Origin: Lentimicrobiaceae bacterium
GTDB taxonomy: Bacteria; Bacteroidota; Bacteroidia; Bacteroidales; UBA4417
Reading direction: 5' to 3'
Assembly (NCBI GenBank): GCA_028697555.1
Contig: JAQVEX010000011.1
Location: forward strand, 1 to 48,480
Length of the DNA: 48,480 bases
Below are positions 1 to 40,625 of this stretch, one piece after another. Made by a program: the position numbers and the translations under genes. The notes beneath the pieces were generated by a model, which saw nothing but the letters and a program-made list of their open reading frames with translations, had not been told where the DNA came from and ran no database searches. Numbering within the stretch: position 1 is the first letter of the stretch; every line of letters starts with the position of its first letter.

Positions 1-175
1 GTCAGGAGTCAGGAGTTAGGAATTAAGAGTTAGTAGTATTTATACTCGAAACTCAGAACTATCCCGTAACCCGTAACCCGTAACACGTAACACGTAACAC
101 GTAACACGTAACACGCAACACGTAACACGCAACACGTAACAGCCAACAGCTAACAGCTAACAGCCAACAGCTAAT
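1..175 (+). repeat. Heptad repeat array, copy 1
   Basis: This is a tandem array of degenerate 7-base units in one phase, 25 units long, and it may continue left of the window. It opens with GTCAGGA, GTCAGGA, GTTAGGA, ATTAAGA, GTTAGTA. A central dyad follows, AGTAT-TT-ATACT at 35-46. After 9-13 further bases come 16 regular units (64-175): CCGTAAC three times, then ACGTAAC or ACGCAAC, then AGCTAAC or AGCCAAC. The left half is roughly the reverse complement of the right half. It lies just downstream of the minus-strand peptidase gene. There are no spacers as in CRISPR and no open reading frame. The same element recurs at 26779, 29432 and 40486. Confidence 0.9.
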
Positions 176-26778: not shown

Positions 26779-26911
26779 GTTGGCTATTAGCTCTTAGCCC
26801 TTGGCTCTTGGCTGGTTCGAGGCAATTAACAATTATCAATTATCAATTAGTAATTGCTCATTGCTCATTGCCAATGGCTAACGGCTAACGGCTAACGGCT
26901 ATGGGCTAAGG
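26779..26911 (-). repeat. Heptad repeat array, copy 2
   Basis: Nineteen consecutive 7-base units in one phase. In plus orientation they run GTTGGCT, ATTAGCT, CTTAGCC, CTTGGCT (twice), GGTTCGA, GGCAATT. A run of ATCAATT-type units follows, with the dyad CAATTA-G-TAATTG at 26844-26856, then GCTCATT (twice), GCCAATG, GCTAACG (three times) and two variants. Read on the minus strand it aligns heptad by heptad with copy 4 (40486), including the run AATTGCC then YCGAACC. It fills most of the gap between the GH95 gene end and the iorA start. Confidence 0.9.
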
Positions 26912-26945: not shown

Positions 26946-29363
26946 TTAATATATAAAGCTGCACTCAGTTTTACCACCAACTCCAATAGTAATAGGAATA
27001 GTATTTTTACCGTTAGGAATAGTTTTTTTCCCGTCGATGATGATTTTCTTTACATTTTTAGGTGTTTTTAGTTCAAAAACCTTACCTGCCTGCGAATATA
27101 TTGTAACTTTTGATGGTTTGCCTTGTTTCCATTCAAGGTCAACTTCGGCATTGCCTCTTATTCTTAACCCTTTGAAGTAGCCATTGTTCCACTCGTTGGG
27201 GATAGCCGGAAGAAGATTAATAAAACCTTCGTGACTTTGAATAAGCATTTCGGCTATTCCTGCTGTTCCGCCAAAATTGCCATCAATTTGAAAAGGGGGA
27301 TGAGCACAAAACAAGTTGGGATAAGTACCGCTTCTGACGGTTTTCGTCTCTCTATCTATAGCCGGTTTTAATAAGTTTTTTAGCAGTTTGTAAGCCCTAT
27401 TACCTTCATAAAGTCTAGCCCAAAAATTTATCTTCCAAGCCAAAGACCAACCTGTTCCTCCGTCACCTCGCCTTTCAAGAGTTTTTTTGGCTGCATCGGC
27501 TAAATGCGGTGTAGTATGTGGAGTAATTTCGTTGTACGGATACAAACCGTATAAATGTGAAACATGGCGATGCTGTGGCTCGACCTCCTTATAGTCGTAC
27601 AACCATTCTTGTAAATAGCCTTGTTCGCTTATCTGATTTGGTGGCAATCTGAGCAAAGCATTTTCAACCTTGTTGATAAAAGCGGTATCGCTATCAGATA
27701 CAATTTTCGATGCATTAATTGTATTGTTAAATAATTCTCTAATTATTTGAATATCCATTGTAGGAGCCATACAAACATATATGGGAGTTATGGTATCATG
27801 CTGATAAAAAGCATTTTCGGGCGAAGAAGACGGTGCAGTTACCAACCAATTATTTTCAGGCTCAATAATCATTGATGATAAATAGAATTGAGCAGCCTGC
27901 TTTAATACATCGTAAATTCCTGATAAGTAAGCAGTATCATTATTAAACAAGAAATGTTGAAACAAATGACTACATAACCAGGCTCCTCCGGTATTTGTTG
28001 CTCCCCACGAAGCATGCTCTGCAGGTGCTGTAAACAACCACGGATTGCTCACCGAATGCGCCACCCAACCATCGGAATTGTAAAACAATTTTGCAGTTTT
28101 TTTGCCCGAAGATGATAATCTTTGCGTGTATGACACAAGTGCTTTATGGTATTCCGACAAGTTGCAAACTTCGGCTATCCAATAATTCATTTGCAAATTA
28201 ATATTCAAATGATAATCGCCATTCCAAGGAGTTTGATACGTGTTCGCCCACAAACCTTGCAAATTTAAAGGCAACAAATCCGGACGTGAGCCGCTAATCA
28301 TCAAATATCTTCCATACTGAAAATACAATGGCACAACGGATGGGTCGTCAGTTTCTGCGAAACTACTAAGCATTTCGGATGTCAACATTATATCAGATTT
28401 TTTCTTACCTATCGACAATTCAACTCTGTCGAATTTTTGCTTATAACTGCTTATATGTCTGTCTTTAAGAGTTTTATATTCCAATGATACTGCATTTTCT
28501 AATAAGCCATCAACCGTCGTTTTATAGTTTGAGTCGAACATATCGGTAGATGACGAAATCAATATTAAAGCCTCGTCTGCGTTTGTAACTGAAATTTTAT
28601 CGCTATTCGACGTAAGAGTTCCGCCTGTTGGCAACACCTTCACTTTTGTGTAAAATCTAACTCCTTTATCGGTATTGTATCCGTCGTTTAATTGACCTTC
28701 CATGACCAAATTATCTCCATCAGATTTCACAATTGCTCTTTCGGCTCTGGCTATTGCTACATCAAAATTAAGTTTGTGCTTTGTGCCGGCACTAAGTTTT
28801 ATTATCAAAATATCATCTTCGTTAGAAGCAAAATATTCTCTTTTGTAGTTAACTCCATCAATTGTAAAAACAGTCGATGCTACAGCATCTTCAATATCTA
28901 ACTCAAAAGTGTAATTTTTAGCAACAATATCAGGATATTTATAATTGATGTTTAACTCGGCTAACATCTGAAAACAACCGTATGGCGAATCTTTGGCATT
29001 TCCGTAGTTAGTGCCAACACCGTTGCATTTAAAATATTTGTACATCAAGTCTTGAGCTTCTTTGTTTTTGCCTTCCGTAAGTAACTTTCTAATAATAGGC
29101 AAATGCTTAACTGCAAGCGGATTATAAACATCTTCGGCACTACCCGACCACATTGTAATATCGTTTAAAATAATTTTTTCAGAACTAATGCCACCATCTG
29201 GCATCATTCCAAGTCTGCCATTACCCAAAGGCAAGGTTTCTTCCCAAATTGAAGCAGGTTTGTCGTATCGTAAAACTAAATTATTACTATGCTTACCATT
29301 ACTACAAGCAATCATAAACATTGAAAAGACGGAAACAAGCAGAATTATACTTTGTTTATTCAT
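26946..29363 (-). CDS. GH95-family alpha-L-fucosidase-like lipoprotein
   Basis: An 805-residue secreted glycoside hydrolase of family GH95, which removes alpha-1,2-linked fucose (some members act on galactose) from host or plant glycans. The signal peptide ends in the lipobox IACS with Cys20 as the lipid anchor. The N-terminal domain carries LPLGNGRLGMMPDGG. The catalytic barrel shows the family landmarks: HLNINLQMNYW near 382 (the Asn pair), SSSPENAF near 514 (the general acid Glu) and QIDGNFGGTAGIAEML near 693 (the Asp). The three match the residues defined in bifidobacterial AfcA, so it is probably active. There is no SusC/D pair beside it; the nearest neighbours are iorAB and a heptad array on each side. 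Confidence 0.9.
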   Translation of the reverse strand: MNKQSIILLVSVFSMFMIACSNGKHSNNLVLRYDKPASIWEETLPLGNGRLGMMPDGGISSEKIILNDITMWSGSAEDVYNPLAVKHLPIIRKLLTEGKNKEAQDLMYKYFKCNGVGTNYGNAKDSPYGCFQMLAELNINYKYPDIVAKNYTFELDIEDAVASTVFTIDGVNYKREYFASNEDDILIIKLSAGTKHKLNFDVAIARAERAIVKSDGDNLVMEGQLNDGYNTDKGVRFYTKVKVLPTGGTLTSNSDKISVTNADEALILISSSTDMFDSNYKTTVDGLLENAVSLEYKTLKDRHISSYKQKFDRVELSIGKKKSDIMLTSEMLSSFAETDDPSVVPLYFQYGRYLMISGSRPDLLPLNLQGLWANTYQTPWNGDYHLNINLQMNYWIAEVCNLSEYHKALVSYTQRLSSSGKKTAKLFYNSDGWVAHSVSNPWLFTAPAEHASWGATNTGGAWLCSHLFQHFLFNNDTAYLSGIYDVLKQAAQFYLSSMIIEPENNWLVTAPSSSPENAFYQHDTITPIYVCMAPTMDIQIIRELFNNTINASKIVSDSDTAFINKVENALLRLPPNQISEQGYLQEWLYDYKEVEPQHRHVSHLYGLYPYNEITPHTTPHLADAAKKTLERRGDGGTGWSLAWKINFWARLYEGNRAYKLLKNLLKPAIDRETKTVRSGTYPNLFCAHPPFQIDGNFGGTAGIAEMLIQSHEGFINLLPAIPNEWNNGYFKGLRIRGNAEVDLEWKQGKPSKVTIYSQAGKVFELKTPKNVKKIIIDGKKTIPNGKNTIPITIGVGGKTECSFIY

Positions 29364-29431: not shown

Positions 29432-29627
29432 TTTAGCTATTGGCTTTTGGCTATTAGCCGTTGGCTATTGCGGGGTGCGGGTTTTAGAAGTTAGAAATCT
29501 GAAATTAGAAATTAGAATTTTATAGTAGTTGTTACTACTAATTACATACTTCTACCTTCTGACTTCTGACTTCTAATTTCTAACTTTACCAGCTAACAGC
29601 TAACAGCTAACAGCTAACGGCTAAAAG
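29432..29627 (-). repeat. Heptad repeat array, copy 3
   Basis: Twenty-eight 7-base units in unbroken phase, the longest copy. In plus orientation it starts with ATTGGCT and GTTGGCT-like units, passes a G-rich stretch (GCGGGGTGCGGG, 29471-29481 region) and AAATTAG units, and reaches the dyad TAGTAGT-TGTT-ACTACTA (29523-29540). It continues with TCTGACT and TCTAACT units and ends in CTAACAG repeats. The two arms are approximately reverse complements, so a single strand could fold into a long imperfect hairpin. With the two flanking promoter candidates it fills the 375-base gap (29364-29738) between divergent genes. Confidence 0.9.
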
Positions 29628-40485: not shown

Positions 40486-40625
40486 GTTGGCTGTTAGCTG
40501 TTAGCCGTTGGCCGTTAGCTATTGGCAATTAGCAATGAACAATGAACAATTAGCAATTAATAATTGCTAATTGCTAATTGAAGATTGATAATTGCCCCGA
40601 ACCACGTAACACGTAACTCGCAACT
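40486..40625 (+). repeat. Heptad repeat array, copy 4
   Basis: Twenty 7-base units in unbroken phase. GTTGGCT, GTTAGCT, GTTAGCC units lead into ATTGGCA, ATTAGCA and ATGAACA (twice). The centre is a perfect 13-bp dyad with a single-base axis, CAATTAGCAATTA (40547-40559) and TAATTGCTAATTG (40561-40573). ATTGATA, ATTGCCC, CGAACCA, CGTAACA and CGCAACT units finish the array. It fills the gap between two convergent genes and ends three bases before the stop codon of the OmpA-family gene. It is the same element as copy 2 in opposite orientation. No separate terminator is seen between the convergent genes. Confidence 0.9.

Follow-up and report, generated by a model that had tools for sequence, protein, structure and literature searches.

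Near-absolute inward orientation of degenerate heptanucleotide arrays between the genes of a Lentimicrobiaceae genome

The window analysed here, a stretch of 48,480 nucleotides, is contig 11 of a 2.33-Mb genome represented by 88 contigs (completeness 97.9%), and it contains four intergenic arrays of degenerate 7-base units, present at or near the positions given in a preliminary description and showing the reported succession of forward and inner units, a dyad and reverse units (Table 1). The genes that flank them are ordinary, and include those for a GH95 glycosidase, an ACP phosphodiesterase, RseC, an OmpA/TPR protein, an M23 peptidase and a TPP-dependent oxidoreductase; a search of the window against Rfam returned tRNAs only. 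We note also that within the GH95 gene and close to its 3′ end (26993-27034) a 21-base unit is tandemly duplicated, the two copies having 90% matches.

Table 1. The four heptad arrays of the window and their decoded blocks (window positions)
Feature	Position	Strand	Description
Array 1	1-175	.	cut by contig start; decoded blocks and TRF period 7
Array 1, dialect 4 forward	1-21		GTYNNGA x3
Array 1, dialect 4 reverse	46-59		
Array 1, dialect 2 reverse	64-140		ACGYAAC x11
Array 1, dialect 1 reverse	141-175		AGCYAAN x5
Array 2	26779-26911	.	flanked by two minus-strand genes; decoded blocks
Array 2, dialect 1 forward	26779-26813		x5
Array 2, dialect 3 forward	26825-26852		x4
Array 2, dialect 1 reverse	26876-26896		x3; plus degenerate units
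Array 3 (focal array)	29432-29627	.	flanked by divergent genes; decoded blocks
Array 3, dialect 1 forward	29432-29466		x5
Array 3, dialect 6 forward	29490-29517		x4
Array 3, dialect 6 reverse	29557-29584		x4
Array 3, dialect 1 reverse	29591-29625		x5
Array 4	40486-40625	.	flanked by convergent genes; decoded blocks
Array 4, dialect 1 forward	40486-40520		x5
Array 4, dialect 3 forward	40528-40562		x5; then AATTGNT reverse units
Array 4, dialect 2 reverse	40597-40624		x4

The focal array is a nested hairpin with helices of roughly 6 bp and about one mismatch per heptad, and the folding energy that had been proposed as a check bears this out (z −8.41 as RNA and −5.08 as DNA); the RNA folds of arrays 2 and 4 have z values of −5.45 and −4.68. 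A scan of two arrays, those beginning at 26779 and 29432, for an intrinsic terminator in the form of a short G+C-rich hairpin with a T run after it found none, and the three terminator-like sites that it found elsewhere are as many as occur in shuffled sequences. The counts of 25, 19, 28 and 20 units given previously are simply the array lengths divided by seven.

Arrays of this kind are numerous throughout the genome. A triple of the commonest heptad, TTRGCNRTTRGCNRTTRGC, has 528+529 matches in the genome with no more than two mismatches, compared with 3+2 for the reversed control, and an alphabet-free scan of 1.20 Mb of the 2.33 Mb identified 196 period-7 arrays, which together occupy 22.9 kb, or 1.9%. 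Other lags (4–6 and 8–13) yield between 0 and 21 arrays each, lag 14 being a harmonic of 7. Called ORFs contain only 20 of the 196 arrays, with the other 176 lying outside them. The arrays in the window are thus real and are part of a genome-wide family.

Decoding of the arrays, with the RTTR-like orientation designated as forward, distinguishes six heptad dialects: NTTRGCY, GKTNCGD, ATKANCA, GTYNNGA, GTGRTGR and its relatives, and RTYNGAA. The commonest units are GTTGGCT, GTTAGCT, GTGATGA, GTTCTGA and GTTGCGT, all of which lack GGG. The heptad CCGNACC/CCGTAAC, previously considered a fixed step in a shared plan, is instead one of these approximately six dialects and is present in some arrays only. 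Nor is the phase unbroken as had been supposed, because the main blocks of the focal array begin at phases 4, 6, 3 and 2 modulo 7, and across the genome only 29 of the 137 dialect junctions are in frame (one in seven, or about 20, are expected), with an offset of 4 being the commonest (40 of 137). Of the 32 junctions within one dialect, 26 keep the frame, and the gaps at array centres are also restricted, being 6 modulo 7 in 20 of 28 dialect-1 centres and 3 modulo 7 in 12 of 18 dialect-4 centres, which places the arms in hairpin register. The units are therefore phase-locked within blocks and at hairpin centres, but not across dialect junctions. Centres are also flanked by the same dialect on both sides more often than expected (60 of 98, compared with 23 expected and a maximum of 36 in 2000 shuffles).

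The strongest regularity of the arrays is their orientation. Junctions between neighbouring blocks are forward-forward in 88 cases, reverse-reverse in 86 and forward-reverse in 98, with just a single reverse-forward junction, such that the internal symmetry recognised in the preliminary description is not only real but stronger than was claimed. As the heptad classes were defined after looking at the arrays, the polarity was checked in three ways: a held-out 400 kb has 27 forward-reverse junctions and no reverse-forward ones, a keto-skew test that makes no use of the classes gives 89:7, and centres formed within a single dialect, for which the choice of what is called forward is immaterial between classes, number 29 for dialect 1 and 19 for dialect 4. 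In all, a keto-rich forward block lies to the left of its reverse-complement block in 125 cases and in the opposite arrangement in one. When blocks are assembled into 177 elements, 105 are forward-reverse, 71 are one-sided (41 forward and 30 reverse), and a single one is a tandem pair. The polarity is thus near-absolute.

The composition of the units reflects that of the genome in which they reside. GTTGGCC is found once, whereas about 68 occurrences are expected (all NTTGGCC forms, from column frequencies), and we attribute this to avoidance of GGCC across the genome, where 53 occurrences are observed and 1835 expected. It follows that the arrays evolved in this genome and are not an artefact of assembly. 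GATC and CTAG are also depleted genome-wide, which together with the near-absence of GGCC suggests a long-standing GGCC restriction-modification system. The arrays are accordingly neither unique to this contig, given the 196 in 1.20 Mb, nor an assembly error, nor without a shared order of blocks.

Classified by gene context, 77 arrays are between convergent genes, 67 between tandem genes and 27 between divergent genes. The median distance to the nearest stop codon is 5 nt in convergent contexts, and between tandem genes the median is 20 nt to the preceding stop and 86 nt to the start that follows. Arrays therefore sit at the 3′ ends of genes and are rare between divergent ones, and their orientation is independent of gene direction. 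One-sided arrays have no preference for gene sense (13 versus 10), and control of orientation by the sense of transcription is rejected on these counts.

Within blocks, adjacent units are more alike than in order-shuffled controls in all five dialects tested, by about 2–3 standard deviations, which supports the earlier proposal that whole 7-base units are copied. Array cores are also common to unlinked loci: those at C5:12271 and C6:28439, for example, have a common 108-bp core (89% identity) that ends inside the arrays and differs in unit number. The many other matches between loci that derive from REP-like or palindromic sequences beside the arrays were left uncounted. Two such neighbouring sequences are recurrent. 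The palindrome CCCGAA(RY)TTCGGG is found in or beside arrays, often centrally (for example C3:57738-58055, C1:45809-46050, C19:20771-20816), and may be a separate short interspersed repeat. A REP-like sequence of 100–240 bp, CACTTCGGTCACTGAGTGCC...TCGAAGTG, adjoins arrays at C5:17964-18308, C9:32785-33270, C8:8274-8616 and C4:8791-9141. A palindromic hairpin with 15-bp arms, AAACCTAACAGGTTT...AAACCTGTTAGGTTT, is also repeated in the genome, at C31:12123-12339, C22:72-104, C38:13-45 and C23:39509-39541.

The two arms of an array share a dialect, yet neither is a copy of the other. In dialects 1 and 4, every variable position tested shows less complementarity between arms of the same array than between arms swapped from one array to another; perfectly complementary unit pairs make up 4.0% in the same array and 9.7% in swapped arms for dialect 1, and 2.2% and 11.4% for dialect 4. 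An exact complement of 13 nt is absent between same-array arms (0/29 and 0/19), compared with 32% and 19% for swapped arms, and G-U pairs between arms are not in excess over mismatches (in tandem-context sense RNA there are 30 mismatches and 17 G-U pairs). These observations argue against both snap-back copying and a selected RNA hairpin, and the strong folding in spite of low complementarity is due to pairing at the fixed positions. The specific ground for rejecting snap-back copying of one arm from the other is that the two share fewer identical units than do arms of different arrays. The depletion does not derive from a general intolerance of long inverted repeats by the genome, which has 38 exact ones of at least 15 nt in 1.6 Mb; since such repeats exist elsewhere and SbcD is encoded in this genome, purging of near-perfect palindromes is a possible cause. 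Loss of SbcD as a condition permitting palindromes is rejected, as it is present here and does not separate array-rich from array-poor relatives.

Assembly bias is another possible source of this anti-identity of arms. Of 24 contig starts, seven carry an array within 300 bp, and with this enrichment at contig ends the assembly may hide the most palindromic arrays. The starts of two contigs, C5:1-271 and C13:1-271, are inverted copies that are 99.3% identical and lie within an array, which together with the seven array-bearing starts indicates that arrays break assembly; as they fill about 2% of this genome, they affect the annotation of Bacteroidota MAGs. Anti-identity of arms is rejected as a general law, as it was not seen in small samples from other genomes.

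Of 295 genomes of the order, 19 have the dialect-1 (GTTAGCY) forward-reverse pattern, with 99+138 in this genome, and one has the reverse-forward pattern, once; the setting of the shared symmetry in Bacteroidota is thereby supported. Other genomes of the genus carry few dialect-1 heptads and have heptads of different sequence; protein identity within the genus is 41–58% at the two loci compared. One of them with a 5-Mb genome (G001; C1, L051, L052, L226-L245) has fewer arrays, which are mostly one-sided, and its heptads are GACTTCC, CTGCTTC, ACAAAAG and AACCAAT; dialects thus change within a genus. In a wider survey, covering 44 genomes reached through named loci, the forward-reverse arrangement is found in Bacteroidota and in an acidobacterial MAG, with few or no reverse-forward pairs (for example 69+72 versus 0, and 65+64 versus 0), with the exception of three genomes (G324, G325 and G326) in which a substantial share of the pairs, or all of them, are reverse-forward. 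The cultured Chitinophaga rupis and Dyadobacter are among the carriers, and the rumen MAGs behind L070 and L074 are Bacteroidota rich in forward-reverse pairs.

The TTAGC heptads of Cyanobacteria have the opposite order, with 746 reverse-forward versus 46 forward-reverse pairs in Microseira wollei, and 351 versus 4 and 158 versus 2 in two cyanobacterial MAGs; the reverse-then-forward order recurs at hundreds of places per cyanobacterial genome (L092, L097 and L119). A universal order rule for the TTAGC heptad is therefore rejected. The first arm at cyanobacterial sites is slightly keto-richer (0.54 versus 0.47), and a rule that the keto-richer strand comes first may, if only weakly, reconcile Bacteroidota with Cyanobacteria. 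A polarity that recurs across families of one order and is opposite for cyanobacterial TTAGC is a sharp clue to the generating process.

With moderate confidence we consider the arrays to be intergenic STRR-like heptad satellites arranged as convergent inverted pairs, shaped by slippage and by recombination between arrays, and for the most part probably tolerated rather than functional. Judging from the likeness of neighbouring units, replication slippage would add and remove whole 7-base units and keep the phase within a block, and recombination among arrays that share a dialect, to which the few locus pairs with common cores point, would copy blocks and cores from locus to locus, carrying the inward polarity along and generating dialect mosaics. 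Arrays accumulate just after stop codons, where they may do least harm, and are fewer between divergent promoters; arms that are too exactly complementary would be purged in this genome, plausibly because palindromes are unstable in a cell with SbcD. These host-driven processes are favoured because there is no reverse transcriptase here and no Y1 transposase in an array-rich relative (G046). Slippage and recombination alone leave unexplained the in-register centres and the inward polarity (the keto-rich strand running 5′ to 3′ toward the centre), which many families of the order share and which is almost never reversed.

It is conceivable, although we think it unlikely, that the arrays are RNA 3′-end elements, with long transcribed hairpins terminating transcription from both sides or protecting mRNA 3′ ends, as proposed for REP/BIME. 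The location fits this role, which had been suggested previously, both in the excess of convergent over divergent contexts (77 versus 27) and in the median of 5 nt to the nearest stop codon; the window arrays fold strongly (z −4.7 to −8.4), and most Xanthomonas heptad repeats are transcribed (PMC4692102). However, the arms fail the covariation test: exchanging arms between arrays raises complementarity at each variable position tested, and G-U pairs are not in excess over mismatches. Moreover, the hairpin form is equally common between divergent (15 of 23) and convergent (40 of 69) genes, 71 of the 177 elements have one arm only, and neither of the two window arrays scanned has a terminator-like site.

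The polarity is exactly what would be predicted by a process at broken ends, in which G/T-rich heptads would be added telomere-like to 3′ ends at double-strand breaks that are subsequently joined, leaving keto-rich strands pointing inward, and one-sided scars when a single end was extended. This predicts not only the polarity but also its independence of gene direction, the unequal arms of different dialects and the one-sided arrays. We nonetheless consider it improbable, as no match to a reverse transcriptase (PF00078) is found here or in array-rich G046, G048, G073 and G091, same-dialect centres (60 of 98) and in-register centres are unexpected of independent ends, and cyanobacterial TTAGC heptads are in the reverse order, even though their first arm is still slightly keto-richer. 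A reverse-transcriptase or telomerase-like origin is rejected because the genome has no RVT_1 (PF00078); extension of 3′ ends at broken or stalled DNA with keto-rich 7-nt units, before the ends are rejoined and by an unknown polymerase of a different type, seems very improbable. Were end-addition true, convergent heptad arrays would be fossil repair junctions with telomere-fusion polarity, recurring across phyla. It is likewise improbable that the arrays are a platform for a putative nucleoid or repair protein that reads heptads directionally, the heptads acting for example as chi-like sites flanking a break-prone centre; a fixed unit length combined with variable sequence has been so interpreted for 20–21- and 52-nt repeats of other bacteria (PMC8161180), and polarity toward the centre would suit a polar site, but the six dialects share few bases, no candidate protein was identified, and dialects change strongly between relatives (GACTTCC and CTGCTTC in G001). 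Least probable of all is the non-autonomous mobile element raised in the preliminary description, a MITE or a REP moved by a Y1/RAYT transposase. This genome does have three Y1_Tnp matches, and REP-like CACTGAG...TCGAAGTG sequences as well as CCGAANNTTCGG palindromes lie in or adjoin many arrays; against this, array length and block order vary freely, and boundaries are fuzzy with neither constant ends nor target duplication seen. A RAYT-driven REP is rejected, since array-rich G046 lacks Y1_Tnp.

Heptads are the commonest of the longer simple repeats in bacteria, as has long been noted, and we know of no account of why the unit should be seven bases long, nor of any function for bacterial heptads. 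The degenerate tandem heptads of Calothrix and Nostoc, known as STRR, resemble the arrays described here in being located between genes, but the cyanobacterial TTAGC heptads are reverse-then-forward in the three genomes searched whereas those here are forward-then-reverse. These cyanobacterial heptads were noted in the Xanthomonas study discussed below, with few inverted pairs reported for Nostoc (PMC4692102). The TAACTGA direct repeats of Beggiatoaceae, Cyanobacteria and five Bacteroidetes (MacGregor 2015, PMC4679880) are also intergenic heptads, with Bacteroidetes among their hosts, two of the five having long arrays with other heptamers alongside. They consist of a single unit, mostly placed immediately before start codons, with one indirect repeat in 169 sets (PMC4679880), whereas the arrays here are near stops and are mostly inverted pairs. 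REP/BIME sequences with RAYT are similarly intergenic, palindromic and present in many copies, but REPs are single hairpins of 20–40 bp with a fixed tetranucleotide tag (PMC3733652), and the arrays here are long, have a period of 7 and do not depend on a Y1 transposase. Repeats of 20–21 and 52 nt that vary in sequence at a fixed unit length are also described (PMC8161180).

The closest described case is that of the Xanthomonas GGGAATC/GGGANTN heptameric repeats (Rehm et al. 2015, PMC4692102): each genome has 70–75 convergent inverted pairs, and the repeats are intergenic, lie nearer to the end of the upstream ORF, are rare between divergent ORFs, and have no function found. The earlier view that no element with this symmetry had been described holds for Bacteroidota, for which we found no account of paired multi-dialect heptads in the open-access literature searched, but Xanthomonas does have heptads in convergent inverted pairs; a near-absolute inward orientation that spans many word families and is spread across Bacteroidota appears to be undescribed. 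The two systems have in common a 7-nt unit, hundreds of intergenic arrays and convergent inverted pairs. Whereas Xanthomonas has one G-rich, quadruplex-forming unit, there are about six dialects here and the commonest units have no GGG, and the arrays of this genome further differ in their nested layers, their larger size and a polarity that can be counted at 125:1.
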